A DNA stretch of 64,000 nucleotides from Spiribacter vilamensis (lineage in GTDB: Bacteria > Pseudomonadota > Gammaproteobacteria > Nitrococcales > Nitrococcaceae). Shown piece after piece: positions 12,701 to 57,721 of the stretch (positions are counted from its first letter, which is position 1; each line of letters starts with the position of its first letter). The stretch is from positions 310,001 through 374,000 of the forward strand of contig NZ_SHLI01000001.1 in the NCBI RefSeq assembly GCF_004217415.1, read 5' to 3'. The translations under genes were made by a program, and so were the position numbers. A model generated the notes under the pieces. The model was not told the DNA's origin and ran no database searches. It saw nothing but the letters and a program-made list of their open reading frames with translations.

Positions 12701-14878
12701 ATGACGGAGCGTGTTCAAAAAGCGGGGCTGCAGGTGGCGAAGCCACTCCATGACCTTATCAGCCAGTCGGCCATTGTCGGCACCGGCGTCGACGAGGCGC
12801 ATTTCTGGGAGGGTCTGGCCACGCTGGTCAGTGAGCTTGGTCCGCGCAACCGCGCCCTGCTGGCCCAGCGCGACACGCTTCAGGCGCGCATCGACGAGTG
12901 GCACCGTCAGCATCCGGGGCAATACGCCGACAGGGCCTATCGGGATTTCCTCGAGGAGATCGGCTACCTGCAGCCACCGGCGGATGAGGTCGAGGTAATC
13001 ACGGCCCATGTGGATGCCGAAATCGCCGAGACTGCCGGTCCGCAGCTGGTCGTCCCGCTCAACAACGCACGCTACGCGCTGAACGCCGCCAACGCGCGCT
13101 GGGGGAGTCTCTACGATGCCCTCTATGGCACCGACGTGATCCCGGATAATGAAGGTATCGAGCGCGGTAATGCCTTCAACCCGGAGCGCGCCCGCCATGT
13201 AGTGGCCTGGGCGACGGCGTTTCTGGACGCCAATTTCCCGCTGGCGGCCGGCAGCCATGGCGATGTCACTGCCTACCACATCGCCGCCGGCGATGCCGGA
13301 CACACTCTGCGCGTGACCATTGGCGAAGGTGGCGAAACCGGGCTTGCAGATCCGGCCCAGTGGGTCGGTTTTGCCGGCGAGGCATCGGCACCGACCGCCG
13401 TTCTATTGCGCCGCCACGGCCTCCATGTCGAAATCAGCATCGATCCATCCGATCCCATCGGTCGAACCCATCCGGCAGGCGTTCGTGACCTGGTCATGGA
13501 ATCGGCTGTTACCTCCATCCAGGACTGCGAGGACTCCGTTGCCGCCGTGGACGGCGAGGACAAGGCACTCGTCTATGCCAACTGGCTGGGCCTGATGCGC
13601 GGCGATCTCGAGGAGCGTTTCTACAAGCAGGGGCGGGAGGTAATCCGCACCCTCAATCCGGACCGGGACTACACGGGTGCCGATGGCGAGCCGCTCAGCC
13701 TCCAGGGGCGGAGCTTGATGCTGGTGCGCAACGTCGGCCATCTGATGACCACACCGGCGGTACTCGACGCCGACGGCAACGAGATCCCCGAAGGCATTCT
13801 CGATGCCCTGTGCACGTCGCTGATCGCCATGCACGACCTCCAGCGTGAGGGCGGCAACAGCCGGGCCGGGAGCGTGTACATCGTCAAGCCCAAGATGCAC
13901 GGCCCGGATGAGGTGGCCCTCACGGTGGCGCTGTTTGCCCATGTCGAGCAGATCCTCGGGCTCGCCGAGAATACCCTCAAGATCGGCGTCATGGACGAAG
14001 AGCGGCGGACCACGCTCAACCTCAAGCGCTGCATCCACGAGGCCCGGGAGCGCCTGATCTTCATCAACACCGGGTTCCTCGACCGCACGGGGGACGAGAT
14101 TCACACGAGCATGGAGGCCGGTCCGATGATCCGGAAGGCCGCCATGAAACAGTCACGCTGGCTTAACGCCTACGAGGACTGGAACGTCGATACCGGGCTC
14201 GCCTGCGGGCTGCAGGACCATGCCCAGATCGGCAAGGGCATGTGGCCCATGCCGGACCGGATGGCCGACATGCTCGGCGCCAAGATCGGCCATCCGCGGG
14301 CCGGTGCCAACTGCGCGTGGGTGCCGTCACCCACGGCGGCCACGCTGCATGCAACGCATTATCACCAGGTCGACGTGCGGGCGCGGCAGGCCGAACTCGC
14401 CGGGCAGTCGCGGGCCGATATCGATGACCTGCTGACAATCCCGGTCGCCACTGATACCGACTGGAGCGAGGCGGAGATCACCGCGGAGCTCGACAACAAC
14501 TGCCAGGGGATCCTCGGCTACGTGGTGCGCTGGATCGATCACGGCGTGGGCTGCTCGAAGGTGCCGGATATCAATGACATCGGCCTGATGGAGGATCGCG
14601 CGACACTGCGCATCGCCAGTCAGCATATCGCCAACTGGCTCTATCACGGGATCGTGACCGAGGCGCAGGTCATGGAGACGATGAAGCGGATGGCGGCGGT
14701 CGTGGATCGTCAGAACGCCGATGATCCGACCTATACGCCGATGGGTCCGGCGTTCCACGGGACGGCCTTTGTGGCGGCCTGTGATCTGGTGTTCAAGGGT
14801 CGGGAACAGCCGAGCGGCTATACCGAGCCATTGCTGCATGCCCATCGCCTGGCTCTGAAGGGCAGCACGGCAGCCTGA
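12701..14878 (+). CDS. glcB: Malate synthase G
   Basis: This 725-residue monomeric enzyme condenses glyoxylate with acetyl-CoA to malate. It is colinear with E. coli Glc[114 protein letters not shown], and [20 protein letters not shown] with the catalytic Asp region. I chose ATG 12701 because GGGGA lies 8 bp upstream; the frame stays open to 12476 only as a read-through of antisense sthA sequence. No isocitrate lyase or glycolate oxidase gene is in the window, so the glyoxylate source is not visible here. Confidence 0.95.
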
Positions 14879-50931: not shown

Positions 50932-51056
50932 TCATTGGCTCCTGTTGAACGGGGTTGGATAGATCAAATCACAGTTTGCGGCGCCATGCCGTATCAGTCG
51001 ACCCGCTCAGTCCGGTTTCGCTACACTCGATTGTCTATGCTTCAAGGACAGATGCT

Positions 51057-51971
51057 ATGGCCACTATCCACCCGTTCCGTTTCGTCACCTCGATGGCGCT
51101 CGCCCTCGGCGTCGGTGCGGCCCAGGCCCAGTCACCGGTCGTGGTGTCGTCGAAGATCGATACCGAGGGATCGGTGCTCGGCCAGCTGATCATCCAGACG
51201 CTCGAGGCCAATAACGTGCCCACCGAGAATCGCCTCCAGCTCGGCACAACGAGCATCGTCCGCGGGGCGATCAAGGCCGGCGAGATCGATCTGTATCCGG
51301 AATACACGGGCAATGGCGCCTTTTTCTTCGATCGCGCCGATCAGCCCGGCTGGAACGATGCCGAAACGGCCTACGAGACAGTCCGCGAGCTCGATGGCGA
51401 GCGCAATGACCTGGTCTGGTTACAGCCCGCTCCGGCGAACAATACCTGGGCGATGAGCGTGCGTCGCGACCTTGCCGAGGCCGAAGGGCTCGAGTCGCTG
51501 GATGACCTGGCCGACTATCTCAACGATGGTGGCGAATTCCGTTTCGCCGCCAGTGCCGAATTCGTGGATTCGGAATCGGCATTGCCGGCCTTCCAGTCCG
51601 CCTATGGCTTCGAGCTGACGGCCGACGAACTGCTCGTCCTCTCCGGCGGGGACACGGCGGCCACCCTGCGCGCGGCGGCACGTTCGGACAATGACGTCAC
51701 CGGCGCCATGACTTACGGGACCGATGGCGGCGTAAGCGCGCTGGGACTGGTGGTCCTGGAAGATAACCGTGGTGTCCAGCCGGTCTATCAGCCATCACCG
51801 GTGGTCCGGGCGCCTGTGCTCGAGGCGCATCCGTCGATTGCCGATCATCTCGAGCCACTGTTTGCCGAACTTGATCTCGAGACGCTACAGATCCTCAATG
51901 CCCGCGTCGCGGTCGAGGGGCAGTCGGCCCACGCGGTTGCGTCGGGCTTTCTCGAGCAGTTGAAACGTTAA
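51057..51971 (+). CDS. Orphan OsmF/ProX-type quaternary-amine-binding protein
   Basis: This 304-residue periplasmic protein belongs to the OpuC/OsmF class of betaine/choline-type binding proteins. A signal peptide of about 23 residues (ending GAAQAQ) precedes VVVSSKIDTEGSVLGQLIIQTLEA, then GEIDLYPEYTGNGAFFF, both hallmarks of the class. AAGGA lies 8 bp before ATG 51057. No permease or ATPase gene is adjacent. It converges on the TelA-type operon, whose own fifth gene encodes a different betaine-type binding protein. Confidence 0.82.
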   Translation: MATIHPFRFVTSMALALGVGAAQAQSPVVVSSKIDTEGSVLGQLIIQTLEANNVPTENRLQLGTTSIVRGAIKAGEIDLYPEYTGNGAFFFDRADQPGWNDAETAYETVRELDGERNDLVWLQPAPANNTWAMSVRRDLAEAEGLESLDDLADYLNDGGEFRFAASAEFVDSESALPAFQSAYGFELTADELLVLSGGDTAATLRAAARSDNDVTGAMTYGTDGGVSALGLVVLEDNRGVQPVYQPSPVVRAPVLEAHPSIADHLEPLFAELDLETLQILNARVAVEGQSAHAVASGFLEQLKR

Positions 51972-52009
51972 GTCGGTTGTTGTCCTGGCGCTCGTGCTGT
52001 ATCCCGTGA

Positions 52010-52678
52010 TCACCTCAGCGGATCCTGGCGATTAAAGCGCTCCTCGAGGAACCGGCCGTGGGCGGCCAGGTCCTGAGCATTGCCGAGATGAACCTCCTCC
52101 GCGATGGATTCAAGCTCCTCGGCAATGGTGCGTAACTGTTCGACCACCAGATCACGGGGCGTGGCGCCGTCGCGGATTTCGCGCTCGATGGCGAAGCGCC
52201 GGGGCAGTTTGAGATAGCGCTCGAGTGTATCCGGCACGTAGCGGGTGATTGTCGCCCGCAGCGTATAATCGAGCTCTGCGCCTGCCCCCGCCTGGTCCCA
52301 GACAGCAAGCACCGCATCGACACCCGCCACGATCCGGTCGAGCTCTTTTTGTACCGGGGCGGTTACCTGCTCGCGAACGGCACCGACACTCAGTTGCAAT
52401 GCATTGCGGAGCGTTTCCGGATCATCGTCGGCGAGGTGGGGACGTAGCGGATCATCGAGTCCGAGCCAACGCTCGATGAGGCCCGGTCGTGTGGGCCACG
52501 CGAGGCGAATACCGACATAGACCGTGACGGAGACCGCCGCCTCCAGCGCCAGATCCACCGCGGGCAACTGCCAGTGTGGAAAGCCGAGAGAATAGTGGCT
52601 GAGCAGGAAGGCAGCGGCGGCCATCGATCCGGCGGAGAGTTCGCGAAGCCACTCCCGGCCGCTCAGGACGCCACCCAC
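52010..52678 (-). CDS. XpaC-like membrane protein, last gene of the TelA operon
   Basis: This protein of about 222 residues starts at GTG 52678, one base after the ProX stop. Two membrane segments lie at about residues 15-30 and 38-58. The rest is helical, with a segment YVPDTLERYLKLPRRFA and a later LRTIAEELESIAEEVHLGNAQDL. That architecture resembles the XpaC (5-bromo-4-chloroindolyl phosphate hydrolysis protein) family, whose genes occur with TelA-family genes, for example the xpaC-yaaN pair of Bacillus. The similarity is my reading of the pattern, not a search result. Enzymatic activity has not been established for the family as far as I know. Confidence 0.5.
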   Translation of the reverse strand: MGGVLSGREWLRELSAGSMAAAAFLLSHYSLGFPHWQLPAVDLALEAAVSVTVYVGIRLAWPTRPGLIERWLGLDDPLRPHLADDDPETLRNALQLSVGAVREQVTAPVQKELDRIVAGVDAVLAVWDQAGAGAELDYTLRATITRYVPDTLERYLKLPRRFAIEREIRDGATPRDLVVEQLRTIAEELESIAEEVHLGNAQDLAAHGRFLEERFNRQDPLR

Positions 52679-52679
52679 G

Positions 52680-53561
52680 TCACTCGCCTTCAATCCAGCC
52701 GCGGACCCGCTCGGAATGGGTATTGAGCCAGTCACGAATCGCCTGTCGGTGTCCGTTGCGCTGGGCATCGGCCATCAGCGCCTGGAGCTCATCGAGATCG
52801 AAGTCGATACGCTCGATCAGCCCGGCAACCCGGGGATGATCGGCGCTGAAACCGGTGCGAGCCATCGCATGAACCGACTCGACGCTGTCATAGATCCCCC
52901 TGGGGTCTTCGAGGTAGCGGAGATCGTACTCGGCCCATTTCCAGTGCGGCCGCCAGGCCGTCACCACCATGGGTTGATTCTGTTCGATCGCCCTGCCGAG
53001 CCGCTGCGCCATGCGCGGACCACTGCCCTCGCGCAGCTCGAAGCCGTCCAGCCCGTAGGCCTCCATCGCCTCCTCGGTGAGTCCCATCACCCCGGCCGTT
53101 GCACCAATGCCCTCGATGCGATTGTCGAATCGATCCGCATTCGCCGCCAGGTCACCGATGGTCCGGATGGACGGGTCAACGTAGTCCGGGACTGCCAGAC
53201 CCACATCGGCTCCGTTGTAGAGGGTGCCGAGGTCTTCCAGCCGCGCCCCGTAGGCCTCCAGATATCGGGCGTGGGTCTGCGGCTGCCACGACATCAGCAT
53301 CACGTCCAGATCGTCATTGGCGATGGCCTTGTACTGCGCCGACACGTCGGCCAGCGTCAGTTCGGCATCGAGCCCCAGGCGTGTGAGCATGAAGTAAGTC
53401 ATCTTGCTGATTACTTCCGCATCGCTCCAGGCGGTCCAGCCGATACGAATATCCGGTTCACGGGCGTTTGCCGGGGCAATGGCGACCAGAAAGGCCAGAA
53501 AGAGGGCGGCAAAGGCGGCAATGCCCCGCCCGTGGCCGTGCCACTGACGATCAGTTCTCAT
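52680..53561 (-). CDS. Glycine betaine/proline-type periplasmic binding protein (OpuAC/ProX family)
   Basis: This 293-residue protein has a signal peptide of about 33 residues (ending APANA) and then the OpuAC fold starting IRIGWTAWSDAEV. Tryptophans W42 and W45, W92 in LMSWQPQTHARYL, and W203, W207 and W209 in TAWRPHWKWAEYDLRYLEDP are placed like the aromatic cage that binds quaternary amines. ATG 53561 has GGAGGA 5 bp upstream and overlaps the VWA gene by 11 bp. No ProV or ProW is present. Its position inside a TelA/VWA operon suggests ligand sensing. Confidence 0.85.
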   Translation of the reverse strand: MRTDRQWHGHGRGIAAFAALFLAFLVAIAPANAREPDIRIGWTAWSDAEVISKMTYFMLTRLGLDAELTLADVSAQYKAIANDDLDVMLMSWQPQTHARYLEAYGARLEDLGTLYNGADVGLAVPDYVDPSIRTIGDLAANADRFDNRIEGIGATAGVMGLTEEAMEAYGLDGFELREGSGPRMAQRLGRAIEQNQPMVVTAWRPHWKWAEYDLRYLEDPRGIYDSVESVHAMARTGFSADHPRVAGLIERIDFDLDELQALMADAQRNGHRQAIRDWLNTHSERVRGWIEGE

Positions 53562-54318
53562 GGAAATCCTCCAGGGGTTCGAACGCCGTGGACTCTGCCA
53601 GGACACGGGAGAGCCCCTGCGCCAGTTCCGCGGGATTGTTCGCTGACTGGTAATTAACCCAGCCGGGCCGACGCAGGGCACTGTCGTCGATGCAGAACCC
53701 GATCGTATGCAGTTCCACCGGGTTGGCCGGGTTGGTGACGATGGTTTCGATGATGGGAGCCGGATCCTCGCCGGAGGAGTGAGCGCCATCGGTGACAACG
53801 ATCAGTTGATAGCGCCCGTACCCGAGCTGGCGTCGGCCCTGCGCCGCCAACAGCTCGTGGGCCTCCTGCAGCGACGAGCGCAGCGGCGTCCCGCCACCCG
53901 GTCGAGTCGTGCCGACAGCGCGCCGAAAGGCCTCGCGATTACCTGTCCCGGGCGATACGGCCACCTCCACGCCAGCGGCGTCGAATGTCACCAGCCCGAG
54001 GTTGGCATCGTCCGGTACCGACTCGATCCAGCGCCCCATCGCGACACGCGCGGCGGCCGCCTTGTCGCGATGCTCGCCGGCGCAGCGGCTTTCCGCCATC
54101 GAGCCGGACATGTCCAGCACCACGGCAATATTGACGCGCCCGGGGTTGATGTCGAGATCGGCCTCCGTTGCCGGTGCTTCGTTCCGGGGTGGCCACTGCT
54201 GCTCGGTAATCGCCGACCAGCCCATCTCCGATGGTGTGGGAGCGGGTTCCGGCGTATCCGGTTGATCACTGCAGGCGGCGATCAACAGCACGACGGGTAC
54301 AAGCAATATGCGGGTCAT
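53551..54318 (-). CDS. Von Willebrand factor A domain lipoprotein
   Basis: This 255-residue protein starts at ATG 54318 with a lipoprotein signal (VVLLIAAC, lipidated Cys16). The residue after the Cys is Ser, which favours the outer membrane. The VWA domain begins near residue 58 and has a complete metal-ion-dependent adhesion site: DMSGSM, the Thr in GGGTPLRSSL, and the Asp in IVVTDGAHSSGED. Such domains bind protein partners through a divalent metal. The upstream gene ends 14 bp before it, and its end overlaps the ProX start. Confidence 0.85.
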   Translation of the reverse strand: MTRILLVPVVLLIAACSDQPDTPEPAPTPSEMGWSAITEQQWPPRNEAPATEADLDINPGRVNIAVVLDMSGSMAESRCAGEHRDKAAAARVAMGRWIESVPDDANLGLVTFDAAGVEVAVSPGTGNREAFRRAVGTTRPGGGTPLRSSLQEAHELLAAQGRRQLGYGRYQLIVVTDGAHSSGEDPAPIIETIVTNPANPVELHTIGFCIDDSALRRPGWVNYQSANNPAELAQGLSRVLAESTAFEPLEDFHEN

Positions 54319-54332
54319 CGCCTGTGCCTCAC

Positions 54333-56048
54333 TTACCACGAGTTGGGCGGCGAGAAGCTCGAGCTCTCGGCCTCGACCTGCACGGCACGGAAGACGACCC
54401 GCATGTTCGATCGCCACTCCGCCTCCGTCTCTGGTGGGCAGGGATCGCCCCCGCAAATCCCGGTCCGCGGATCGGAAAAGCCCAGGCCCTCGGTGACGAA
54501 CTGCGAGGCATCCAGACTGACGTCCTGCTGTTCGGCATAGTCGATAATCTGATCGCGCACCGAAACGGCGCGATTGCGGCTGAGATTGCGTGCAGACTGC
54601 CGGATCGAGCGCAGCGTACTCAGATCCGCGCCGTTTTCCTTGCGCCGCAGGTAGGCGAGGGGGTCGGCATGCCCTTCCACGGTAAAGACCGCGCCGCCGT
54701 ATTCGGTCGCCGCCTCGGCGATCGTCGCGAACTCCTCCCGGTACTCGTCGATGGGGAACGTGGACTGGTTGGGCTCGAACTGGATGCGGAACTCCGCGAT
54801 TGTGCGGGCCTCCAGATCGCCGGCGTCACGCTGCTCGCTGACCATGCGCGTTGCGGCATCCCGATTGAAGGAGGGCAGGGAGACGCGGCGCTTGTCGAAA
54901 ACGCCCTCCGCCAGGGCGCTGTAGTCGTAGTTGGCCAGACGCACGGAGCGCGCGGTATCCAGCACGCCCAGCGGGACCAGGGTATTGGCGAGCCGGTTGT
55001 TCACCGCCGCAAACGCCCGCGGATGATCGTCGCTGGACCAGTCGCTGTTGCCCTGCATGCCGACGGTTTGCACCCGGCGCCACAGATCGGCGGCTTCATC
55101 CGCCACGGCCGGGTCGCCGAGGAGCTGGCCGGCGACCGCCTCCCAGTCAACGATCAGCTTTTTGACGTCCTCGCGCACCTGTTCCTCGGCGCGGAGCAGG
55201 CCGGTGATGAAGCGTTTGAGTTGCTCCCGGTTGGCCTCGAGATAATCGGCCCGCACCACGTAGACCTCGGACATCGCGCGGCTGGCGGCCTGGGTCGAAA
55301 ACCGGATTTCCGCGCCGCGCACCGACCCCTCCGCGCCGGTGCCTGTCTCTCCGCCGCTGGTCAGCACGTCCGCGTCGGGCCGAGTGACCAGCGCGGCATC
55401 GATCGTGTCATCGGCGTAGAAACGCGCCCCGGGTGTGTCGCCGTCGAGCCCCACCTGGTCATCGGTGTAGACCAGCTCCGGATCGGTCCAGGATACGTTC
55501 GCATCCTCTGCCCGGTTTTTCGCCGCCTCGATCGTGCTCACCAGCAGGTCGAGCTGGGGGGCATACGACTGCAGCGCGATCGTGGCGCCCGAGAGATCGG
55601 CCAGCGAATCGACGCTGTCCCGCGTGACCAGCGCATCCGCCCCGCTCGAGTAGCCGTGCTGGTAGATCGCCACCATTTCGGTGCGTGGATCGTCACCGGT
55701 CAGCGCGCCTGCGAGCAGCATCTGGGCCTGGGTGAGGCGCATGACGGGTGTCTCGCAGCGCAGATAGGCGGCGAGCTGTTGATCCAGATCGTTTTCCAGC
55801 GCGAGGTCGACTTCCACATCCTGCTCGGCGAACGGACTGTTGCCGGCGGTTTCCTGCGCATAGCCATTGGCGTAGAGCGGGACCAGGTCGAGGCCGGACG
55901 TGCGCAGCGGCACGTTGAGCGTGTCGCTGGCGCTGCAGTCGCGGATCGCCACATCAACCGCCTGCCGGAGGGATTCCGTGTCGCCGGCATGCACCGTGCC
56001 CGCAAGCATCAGCGTAGCGCCCAGTGCGATAAACGATTTCCTGACCAT
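54333..56048 (-). CDS. Periplasmic substrate-binding domain fused to an OmpA-type peptidoglycan-binding domain
   Basis: This 571-residue protein is exported by a signal peptide (MVRKSFIALG... ending VHAGD). Residues about 25-400 resemble a family of solute-binding proteins (PstS/NMT1-like) with SLADLSGATIALQSYAPQLDL and DAALVTRPDADVL. From about residue 418 an OmpA C-terminal domain follows (FEPNQSTFPIDEYREEF, EGHADP, LSRNRAVSVRDQI), with the peptidoglycan-binding Asp and Arg retained. ATG 56048 follows CGGAG. A binding domain tied to the cell wall cannot shuttle to a transporter freely, so a sensing or scaffold role is inferred. Confidence 0.78.
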   Translation of the reverse strand: MVRKSFIALGATLMLAGTVHAGDTESLRQAVDVAIRDCSASDTLNVPLRTSGLDLVPLYANGYAQETAGNSPFAEQDVEVDLALENDLDQQLAAYLRCETPVMRLTQAQMLLAGALTGDDPRTEMVAIYQHGYSSGADALVTRDSVDSLADLSGATIALQSYAPQLDLLVSTIEAAKNRAEDANVSWTDPELVYTDDQVGLDGDTPGARFYADDTIDAALVTRPDADVLTSGGETGTGAEGSVRGAEIRFSTQAASRAMSEVYVVRADYLEANREQLKRFITGLLRAEEQVREDVKKLIVDWEAVAGQLLGDPAVADEAADLWRRVQTVGMQGNSDWSSDDHPRAFAAVNNRLANTLVPLGVLDTARSVRLANYDYSALAEGVFDKRRVSLPSFNRDAATRMVSEQRDAGDLEARTIAEFRIQFEPNQSTFPIDEYREEFATIAEAATEYGGAVFTVEGHADPLAYLRRKENGADLSTLRSIRQSARNLSRNRAVSVRDQIIDYAEQQDVSLDASQFVTEGLGFSDPRTGICGGDPCPPETEAEWRSNMRVVFRAVQVEAESSSFSPPNSW

Positions 56049-56071
56049 GTACCACTCCGATCCCTTGCGTT

Positions 56072-56503
56072 TCACTGCAGTTGCAACCTCACCTCAGTGC
56101 GTCTGAGTCGGTCGCGGTAGGCACGATCCGTCTCATCGGCCTGCCTTTCAAGCGGCTCTTTACCGCCAACCGAATGCGTCGTGATGCGCTCGGGCTCGAT
56201 GCCCGATGCTTGCAGCGCATCGCGAACCGTTCGAGCGCGGCGTTCACCCAGTGCGTAGTTGGCTTCAGCCTCGCCCCGGGTGCCGGTATGTCCGACGAGA
56301 CTCGCCCGGTAGCCTGACTGTCGATCCATGGTGGCCGCGACCCGCTCGACGGTTCGCTCACCAGCGGCCGTTAGTGACGTACCGCGCTCGAATCCCACGG
56401 TATAGGTGCGCGGTGCATGATCGCGACCGATCCAGTCCAGTGTCAGGGCGGCGGCAATGGCGACCGCCAGCAGGGTCAGGCCGACGTAGCGTTTCGGATC
56501 CAC
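56072..56503 (-). CDS. Small membrane-anchored OmpA-like protein
   Basis: This 143-residue protein has one N-terminal membrane helix (about residues 6-25) and an OmpA-like domain: FERGTSLTAAGERTVERVA, VGHTGTRGEAEANYALGERRARTVRDAL. The Asp that normally follows GHT and binds peptidoglycan is Gly here, while the later Arg is present, so cell-wall binding may be weakened. It starts 6 bp after the TelA stop and ends 23 bp before the fusion protein. Confidence 0.78.
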   Translation of the reverse strand: MDPKRYVGLTLLAVAIAAALTLDWIGRDHAPRTYTVGFERGTSLTAAGERTVERVAATMDRQSGYRASLVGHTGTRGEAEANYALGERRARTVRDALQASGIEPERITTHSVGGKEPLERQADETDRAYRDRLRRTEVRLQLQ

Positions 56504-56509
56504 CGCCGA

Positions 56510-57721
56510 TCAGAGCTCCAGCCCGCTGGCGGGTCGACTGGCACTGTCCGACTCGAGGGCATCCTGCGCCTCTTCCTGCTGGACACGATCCATTCGCTCG
56601 CGGGCCTTGCCGATCTGCCCGTCGAGGGTGTCCACGGTCTGTTTCATGCTCTCGAGCGCCCGGCTCTTGTAATCGGACATCTCGTCCATGGTCGCGTAGA
56701 TATTCGAGAACGCATTCTCGAGTTTGTCGAGCTCGATGGTCGAGTCGGCGGCCTGCTCGTGGATCTGCGCCGACTGATCGCGCATCAACTCACTGGTGCC
56801 CTGGATCACGTCGCCGGTCGTCTCATTGAGGGCCTTGATCTGCTCGAGGACGAGGCGCTGGTTGGTCAGTGCCTGCGCGACGATCGTCGCGGTGCGCAGC
56901 GCCGAAATCGTCACACTGGTGGCGCGTTCGACGCCCTTGATCAGTTCGAGGTTGTTCTTGCGGATCATGTCCAGCGCCATATAGCCCTGCACGGAGACCG
57001 CCAGCTGGCTCTGCAGGTCCTGCACCTTCTGCCGGGCGTAGAACAGGAGCTCCTCGCGAACCGCACGCGCCTTGTGCTCGCTATGCTTCTCGATTTCGGC
57101 GATACGCTGCTCCAGTCCGGCGTCGATCTGCCGGCCCAGGTAGACATACTCCTCGAGCGTCTGCATCAGCCCCCAGAGATTGCGTTTCTCCTCATCGATG
57201 GAGGCGTTATCGCGCTGGAGTTCGTCGCGCCCCTGGTAGAGCGACTGAATGATTGCATCGATATGGGACTGCGCCGACTGATACTCGCGGAAGTAGTCGT
57301 TCAGCTTGTTGCCCCAGGGGATGAAGCCGAGTAGCTTTTTGGGCTCGAACAGGTTGCCGCGCCGCGAGGGATCGAGCTCTTCGACGGTGCTGCGCAGCTC
57401 CAGGAGCGATTTGGAGACATCGCTCTCGCCAGACAGCGCGCCCTGATCCATCGACTTGACCGGTTTGTCGAGCAGCCGGTTGGAGACATTGGCGGCGTCG
57501 CGCATGGATGCGTTGCCCATCTGATGGGCGCTGCGTACCGCTTCCCTGAAGTCGTCGCTCTCCGGGTCGGATTCCACCACCCGCGTGACAAAGGCCGTCG
57601 CCTGCTCGGCCAGTTTGTCCTGGCGTTCCGCGGGCAGCGGCACCTTGCGCTCCGCCTCCTCGGGCTCGACGGCGGGTGCCGGCTCGGGTGGCTGGAGCGC
57701 CTGATCGGCGGAAGTGCTCAT
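56510..57721 (-). CDS. TelA/KlaA family protein (toxic anion resistance PF05816 type)
   Basis: This 403-residue cytoplasmic coiled-coil protein resembles the TelA family. Hallmarks are the Pro/Glu-rich start, FIPWGNKLNDYFREYQSAQSHIDAIIQSLYQGRDELQRDN in the middle, and DMIRKNNLELIKGVERATSVTISALRTATIVAQALTNQ toward the end. Family members are linked to tellurite and other envelope or chemical stresses, but the mechanism is unknown. It is the first gene of a six-gene operon, and its neighbours span membrane, periplasm and outer membrane. Confidence 0.88.
   Translation of the reverse strand: MSTSADQALQPPEPAPAVEPEEAERKVPLPAERQDKLAEQATAFVTRVVESDPESDDFREAVRSAHQMGNASMRDAANVSNRLLDKPVKSMDQGALSGESDVSKSLLELRSTVEELDPSRRGNLFEPKKLLGFIPWGNKLNDYFREYQSAQSHIDAIIQSLYQGRDELQRDNASIDEEKRNLWGLMQTLEEYVYLGRQIDAGLEQRIAEIEKHSEHKARAVREELLFYARQKVQDLQSQLAVSVQGYMALDMIRKNNLELIKGVERATSVTISALRTATIVAQALTNQRLVLEQIKALNETTGDVIQGTSELMRDQSAQIHEQAADSTIELDKLENAFSNIYATMDEMSDYKSRALESMKQTVDTLDGQIGKARERMDRVQQEEAQDALESDSASRPASGLEL

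Follow-up and report, generated by a model that had tools for sequence, protein, structure and literature searches.

A six-gene operon of Spiribacter vilamensis that joins TelA to periplasmic binding proteins, a VWA lipoprotein and OmpA domains: a candidate solute-sensing module of the cell envelope

The operon and its six products

Positions 52010-57721 of the 64,000-nucleotide stretch of the Spiribacter vilamensis genome analysed here (the window) are occupied by six open reading frames (ORFs), all open, intact and on the minus strand, which form an operon that brings a TelA-family protein together with periplasmic binding proteins, OmpA domains and a VWA lipoprotein. Read from the DNA, the starts lie at 57721 (telA), 56503 (the ompA-like gene, GTG), 56048 (a fusion of a solute-binding protein, SBP, to OmpA, here SBPO), 54318 (VWA), 53561 (OpuAC) and 52678 (the gene in the XpaC slot, GTG), and the genes are separated by 6, 23, 14, -11 and 1 bp, exactly as an earlier note made from the letters alone had given them. 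No permease or ATPase is encoded among the operon ORFs. A pattern search of the operon gave two promoter patterns against 1.0 expected and one terminator pattern against 2.4 expected, and GC content, considered as a sign of transfer, was uninformative (0.649 for the operon, 0.642 for the window).

The third gene of the set (54333..56048) encodes the 571-aa SBPO, with a signal-peptide-like N-terminus, a TauA/SsuA-type binding domain and a C-terminal OmpA domain. Both halves score under the curated cut-offs (OmpA, E 2e-4, score 22 against 27.2; SsuA family, E 8e-5), and an AlphaFold model built from a 39-row alignment (pLDDT 90.3) shows the TauA/SsuA-type fold in the N-terminal part, while a profile search with SBPO also recovers TauA and the OmpA domain of A. 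baumannii. Its Asp471 and Arg502 (numbered from a start at 56075) are invariant in alignments of 32 and 39 rows, and we take them to be the pair that contacts diaminopimelate (DAP) in the A. baumannii OmpA domain. The neighbouring ompA-like gene (56072..56503) encodes a 143-aa protein with an OmpA domain (PF00691, E 1.4e-15) behind an N-terminal membrane anchor, a single hydrophobic segment at residues 7-25. This small protein resembles the OmpA half of PSTO, a second SBP-OmpA protein that is the OmpA-domain partner in class A loci (defined below; PSTO profile, E 7e-25). Across these OmpA and PSTO partners the Arg is kept in 78 of 82 and the Asp in only two of 82, and wall binding by the small OmpA protein is doubtful because the usual DAP-binding Asp is missing. 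Anchors and signal peptides were called throughout by simple hydropathy readings.

The VWA lipoprotein (53551..54318, 255 aa; PF13519, E 1e-11) has a full metal site (MIDAS: DxSxS, T, D), and the five positions D, S, S, T and D are kept in 84, 85, 85, 85 and 85 of the 85 proteins in the VWA set. Its N-terminus carries a lipobox-like IAAC followed by Ser. The OpuAC betaine-type binding protein (52680..53561, 293 aa, signal-peptide-like N-terminus) matches PF04069 at E 3.9e-61, with 207 bits against a cut-off of 21.2, and aligns with the OpuAC structure 2b4l at E 1.9e-41. Three Trp positions are conserved in the seven class B copies (defined below), and a further Trp, in a PHW motif, is Arg in both Halomonas copies. 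With the B. subtilis protein the alignment runs in swapped-lobe order, an order described for a related protein in PMC5818414, from which the role of the Trp residues in the ligand cage is also partly taken. Elsewhere in the host genome, near C1:213-214 kb, a second OpuAC-type SBP lies beside a permease and is 40% identical to the operon OpuAC.

TelA itself (56510..57721, 403 aa) is a coiled-coil protein of the PF05816 family (E 1.9e-88, 297 bits against a cut-off of 30) in which hydrophobic segments are absent, consistent with a cytoplasmic location. The sixth gene (52010..52678) encodes a 222-aa membrane protein with two hydrophobic stretches, both under the threshold used. It has no Pfam match at E 1, PF10112 included, although HMMER filters may drop weaker ones, and no NCBIfam match at E 0.01. 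Profile comparison with hhalign, pairing a profile of the window protein and two Halomonas proteins with a profile of seven XpaC-slot proteins from related loci, gave a probability of 94% (E 1.4e-7) over the membrane hairpin only; the six of those seven that were scanned singly all pass the PF10112 cut-off. These results bear out the labels that the earlier note had given to the TelA, OmpA, VWA and OpuAC proteins, as well as that of the binding-protein/OmpA fusion, which stands on sub-cut-off scores and the modelled fold; the XpaC-like label is the weakest of the six, a tentative one that profile comparison links to XpaC over the hairpin alone.

Relatives of the operon across genomes

A six-row SBP-OmpA alignment, used in a single scan of 84,980 species genomes, found 112 relatives, of which 80 were listed and kept, and each locus was then treated by ORF calling, family profiles and mapping. 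Counts of gene content below refer to the full-flank set, made up of 44 distinct loci flanked by 8 kb or more on either side; three Vibrio plasmid loci and the window (its flanks set manually to 10 kb) are among them. L011 and L012 are near-copies and several other full-flank rows are close pairs; L014 duplicates L069 and was removed from the counts, L013 lies on the same contig as L047 with short flanks, outside the 44, and the weak matches L015-L018 were not counted as members. The loci fall into two classes, with 38 class A and six class B loci in the full-flank set, and the window belongs to class B.

Gene linkage is far above chance. Going downstream from the seed fusion, the first family match is to VWA in 80 of 84 loci and to OpuAC in two, with none in the remaining two (contig end or short), and TelA is present in 38 of the 44 full-flank loci, 32 of 38 in class A and six of six in class B. 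In class A, VWA and PSTO are each present in 38 of 38 loci, a helical or XpaC membrane protein in 37 (35 and two, respectively) and a TIGR03427-type SBP in 29, and 31 loci have SBPO-VWA-PSTO-helical-TelA as an uninterrupted run. The core of this system, namely the SBP-OmpA fusion, VWA, an OmpA-domain partner and TelA, is present in full in the window operon, from which the TIGR03427 SBP with its permease and ATPase is absent. In class B, OmpA, OpuAC, the XpaC-slot protein and TelA are present in all six loci, VWA in four and a permease in none, and OpuAC is kept in each of the seven class B loci that extend far enough. The system is widely conserved in many phyla, including gammaproteobacteria, Thermodesulfobacteriota, spirochaetes and candidate phyla, and its genes occur linked, not as the scattered homologues that the earlier note had named as a finding against its reading.

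Several loci depart from these arrangements or add to them. L090 (3529-19345) has a class A core between two complete SBP-permease-ATPase sets, one per side, and no TelA match. In an Oceanobacter, a core-only class A locus (L084:5015-5992) is preceded at some 4 kb by an OpuAC gene, which may mark an independent association with a betaine binder. Downstream of TelA, the two class B loci from Desulfobacteraceae (L023:11086-12603 and L024:13877-15367) each have a glycosyltransferase-like gene that by eye resembles trehalose synthase. Seven Vibrio plasmid records match SBPO, six of them across most of the protein, and the three of these six that were examined carry a single run of genes for an ATPase, SBP-OmpA, VWA, PSTO, the helical protein, TelA, a permease and a 'urea' SBP that precedes it. 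In L010, L011 and L012 (at 8.4-18.5 kb) the class A operon of large Vibrio plasmids lies between a PRTRC-gene region and an RctB-type replication gene, with small genes of no assigned function flanking it. On plasmid p380 of Vibrio coralliilyticus (L134:4849-7894), a 'hypothetical' protein similar to the OmpA half of SBPO is encoded beside a vWA gene and near an integrase, in a possible reduced form of the locus with TelA unannotated in the 12 kb shown.

The OmpA domains, the VWA lipoprotein, the membrane anchors and TelA with XpaC all belong to the envelope, and it is conceivable that the operon makes a mechanical link between outer membrane, wall and inner membrane against damage, with the binding domains serving as protein-protein adaptors that have lost solute sensing. 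The full-flank locus L040, which has SBP-OmpA, VWA and PSTO alone, and the second SBPO of Halomonas ML-15, which is without a conserved binding-domain loop, fit such a tether. It is nonetheless unlikely, as the OpuAC Trp positions and many SBPO binding-domain residues are conserved, and the lineage-wide difference in SBP type fits the use of a ligand.

TelA and its membrane partners

The TelA of the operon is 74-77% identical to those of two Halomonas class B loci, with which it forms one of two deeply separate class B groups on well-supported branches of a quick tree; the second group holds four others with about 52-85% mutual identity. The position of the membrane partner is likewise filled in several ways. 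A window-type protein occupies it in three loci, XpaC in four class B loci (L020, L023, L024 and L025, all over the PF10112 cut-off) and in two class A loci of spirochaetes from the full-flank set (on the opposite strand in L075), and a helical protein in most class A loci. This suggests that the TelA and membrane-partner slots are refilled rather than lost, and from such repeated refilling we infer that the system may need both a TelA and a membrane partner.

The helical membrane family, encoded upstream of TelA at L041:14022-14843 and in 34 more full-flank class A loci, received no Pfam name in the 42 members scanned. It was considered as a divergent XpaC, a possibility ruled out by PF10112 (none of the 42 members) and by hhalign (4.8%), and its AlphaFold model (pLDDT 92) found no solved fold relative at E <= 0.001.

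TelA and XpaC are widespread families named after tellurite and dye phenotypes, for which we know of no established mechanism and, in the case of TelA, of no established input. In Firmicutes their genes are placed in envelope-stress regulons by PMC3498285 and PMC12791056, the latter of which describes their function in Listeria as not well established.

Importers and the ligand of class A

A permease and an ATPase lie near related SBP domains in 29 of the 38 class A loci, and L032, in which an SBP and a permease are followed by the end of the locus, would be a 30th. Importer genes are absent within 8-10 kb in eight of the 38. In class B, the permease profile found none in L019-L021 and L023-L025 nor among the window ORFs, with positive controls in which it recovered four other permease types (OpuA-, ProU-, osmF- and guanidine-type, as labelled here); L019 has one ATPase about 7 kb away. 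The transporter is thus a common partner and not an obligate one. The earlier note had described a system with no transporter, and had named a dedicated permease and ATPase, as obligate partner of the binding proteins, as a finding that would speak against it. Its description holds for the operon, for all six class B loci and for the eight class A loci without importer genes, and does not extend to class A in general, where the pair is frequent.

The importer loci make it possible, if somewhat less probable than sensing, that the operon serves wall-anchored capture for uptake, in which the binding proteins would concentrate the solute in the periplasm and hand it to an ABC importer encoded within the operon (class A) or elsewhere in the genome (class B), with TelA and XpaC supporting the envelope or the importer under stress. 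The host's second OpuAC-type SBP with its adjacent permease, a betaine importer of OpuA type, would suit such a hand-over. The lack of a permease in class B argues the other way; by reasoning, OmpA-fused SBPs would be badly placed for permease docking, and transport by itself leaves TelA, VWA and XpaC unexplained.

The identity of the class A solute is a lead only, and sequence similarity points to a guanidine-like ligand. All three class A SBPs tested pass the TIGR03427 cut-off; a single PSTO binding domain was tested, and it is TIGR03427-like with a score under that value. Import of guanidine by bacterial ABC transporters is described in PMC12186494. The host has one TIGR03427 SBP, at C1:1470909, and in its locus a guanidine-I riboswitch immediately precedes the permease and ATPase genes. 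Compared with this host set, the SBP, permease and ATPase of class A show median identities of 47%, 48% and 47% (44, 47 and 56 matches, which take in one genus relative's own copy). The host locus (L121:6814-15131) also holds, by ORF reading, arginase-like and glutamine-synthetase-like genes; its riboswitch lies at 13324-13421 (+, 83 bits), and an S-adenosylhomocysteine riboswitch of the host genome at L121:1727-1812 (+, RF01057, 50 bits). A scan of 19 class A loci (in groups of six, seven and six) gave no guanidine riboswitch at gathering score.

Evolutionary history and the osmF site

In a tree of 86 fusion proteins (like the others made here, a quick tree), the ten class B rows, which represent eight loci of which two have paralogues, are set apart by a branch whose SH-aLRT support is 100%. 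Class B fusions are 49-54% identical to that of the window, and their hosts are Halomonadaceae, Saccharospirillaceae, an alphaproteobacterial metagenome-assembled genome (MAG), two Desulfobacteraceae MAGs and S. vilamensis, a mixture of phyla that indicates horizontal transfer. Most of the class B names presumably point to salty habitats, and class A is found in marine and saline settings as well. Among 369 genomes of the class, 39 have a TelA that scores over its cut-off; full-length SBPO occurs in three of the 369 (host included), all with TelA, and weak SBPO matches in three more; TelA is therefore far wider than the SBP-OmpA system.

The immediate neighbour of the operon is an osmF gene (50955..51971, plus strand; NF049931, E 2.8e-130) for a betaine-type binding protein. 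In the sister genome G021, permease, ATPase and permease genes come after osmF (85-86% identical), with moeA next in line, and G010 has the same osmF-permease-ATPase-permease order at another site. In the host, the convergent operon lies 38 bp past osmF and is followed by moeA, so that the operon occupies the site of the permease and ATPase genes of an osmolyte importer and osmF is orphaned; in G009 and G012, moeA adjoins an aldo/keto reductase gene. The first osmF permease has no close counterpart elsewhere in the host genome (best 31-33%), and replacement of the osmF transport genes by the operon is the simplest reading. A putative scar of an osmF permease in the 38-bp gap (51972-52009), with 19 of 24 bases matching a relative's second osmF permease gene, was equalled in score by 3.5% of 200 shuffles and was not used.

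An alternative possibility is that class B operons are decaying remnants of a class A-like operon whose transporter has been lost, the rest drifting or serving nothing specific. Presence of the operon is patchy, the other 13 genomes of the genus have no full SBPO, and gene order varies among class B loci, all of which could be expected of decay. Even so, this is very improbable, given that all six window ORFs are intact, that class B is a divergent clade with conserved sites, and that OpuAC has been retained wherever the class B loci reach far enough.

A trans-envelope sensing model

Under the reading that we favour, with a probability of about 0.43, the operon is a trans-envelope solute-sensing and stress module, for betaine in this host, that acts on TelA. 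Sensing to TelA is favoured because the core survives without a permease, the solute module differs block-wise between the classes, and the TelA and membrane slots are refilled; it is somewhat more likely than capture for uptake. The gene set and its linkage, the domains, the conserved metal-site and aligned binding-site residues, the class B clade and the location at the osmF site are established features of the system. In the scheme that we infer for ligand binding, complex formation, cellular placement, signal direction and TelA output, the SBP-OmpA fusion would be tethered to peptidoglycan in the periplasm, the VWA lipoprotein would probably sit on the outer membrane, betaine would be bound by the OpuAC protein and the small OmpA protein would reach out from the inner membrane. 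The periplasmic parts might then dock with one another in a ligand-dependent manner, with the VWA metal site as a likely docking point, and the docking state would be relayed, along the route proposed in the earlier note, through the inner-membrane OmpA anchor and the XpaC-slot protein to cytoplasmic TelA, which would adjust the envelope.

Several observations weigh against this model. The frequency of permease and ATPase genes in class A means that transport may have been the ancestral role, no TelA match was found in six of the 38 class A loci, and VWA is missing from two of the six class B loci, these being both Halomonas loci, where no VWA match was found and a second fusion protein stands in its stead. 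A lipobox-like pattern occurs in just 36 of the 85 VWA ORFs (their starts untrimmed), the XpaC link spans only the membrane hairpin of about 67 residues, and the small OmpA protein of the operon keeps the Arg with Gly in place of the usual DAP-binding Asp. Among 23 genomes of the family, SBPO is found in the host only, bar one weak 131-residue match, and a rarity of this kind within the genus marks the module as accessory.

The system is apparently undescribed so far, as literature searches on the operon or on its parts together found no paper describing it, with most subscription papers outside their coverage. More tentatively than the sensing role itself, it might constitute a new type of sensory system, in which binding proteins derived from ABC importers are placed on the wall and outer membrane, their state being passed to TelA by a VWA protein with a metal site and a helical protein of the membrane. 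Its solute modules would be exchangeable, guanidine-type in most lineages and betaine in class B, and it would be functional without a transporter.

Comparison with known systems

The guanidine or 'urea' ABC importers with a TIGR03427 SBP resemble the SBP, permease and ATPase of class A. They differ in their riboswitch, which the scanned class A loci do not have, and class B is without the set altogether. The betaine importers OpuA, ChoXWV and ProU share with the operon an OpuAC-family binding protein with aligned Trp positions, whereas the operon has no permease or ATPase and the class B loci searched have no permease. Class A operons, such as those of Vibrio plasmids, are known from annotation only; they have the fusion gene, VWA, an OmpA partner and TelA in common with the operon, and are distinguished by a further SBP-OmpA fusion and, in most cases, an ABC importer, where class B has OpuAC with a bare OmpA anchor and lacks a permease.

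The xpaC-yaaN (TelA) operons of Firmicutes combine a TelA-family protein with an XpaC-type membrane protein, and belong to envelope and antimicrobial stress regulons according to PMC3498285 and PMC12791056. They differ from the operon studied here in that its XpaC-slot protein falls under Pfam detection. To our knowledge they also have no periplasmic binding proteins, VWA lipoprotein or OmpA proteins. The present locus ties TelA and XpaC to named periplasmic solute binders and makes the input of TelA directly testable; if true, the sensory reading would give TelA a defined periplasmic input. For such work class B is the simplest test bed, with one betaine-type binder, one or two fusions and no transporter that would blur the line between uptake and sensing.

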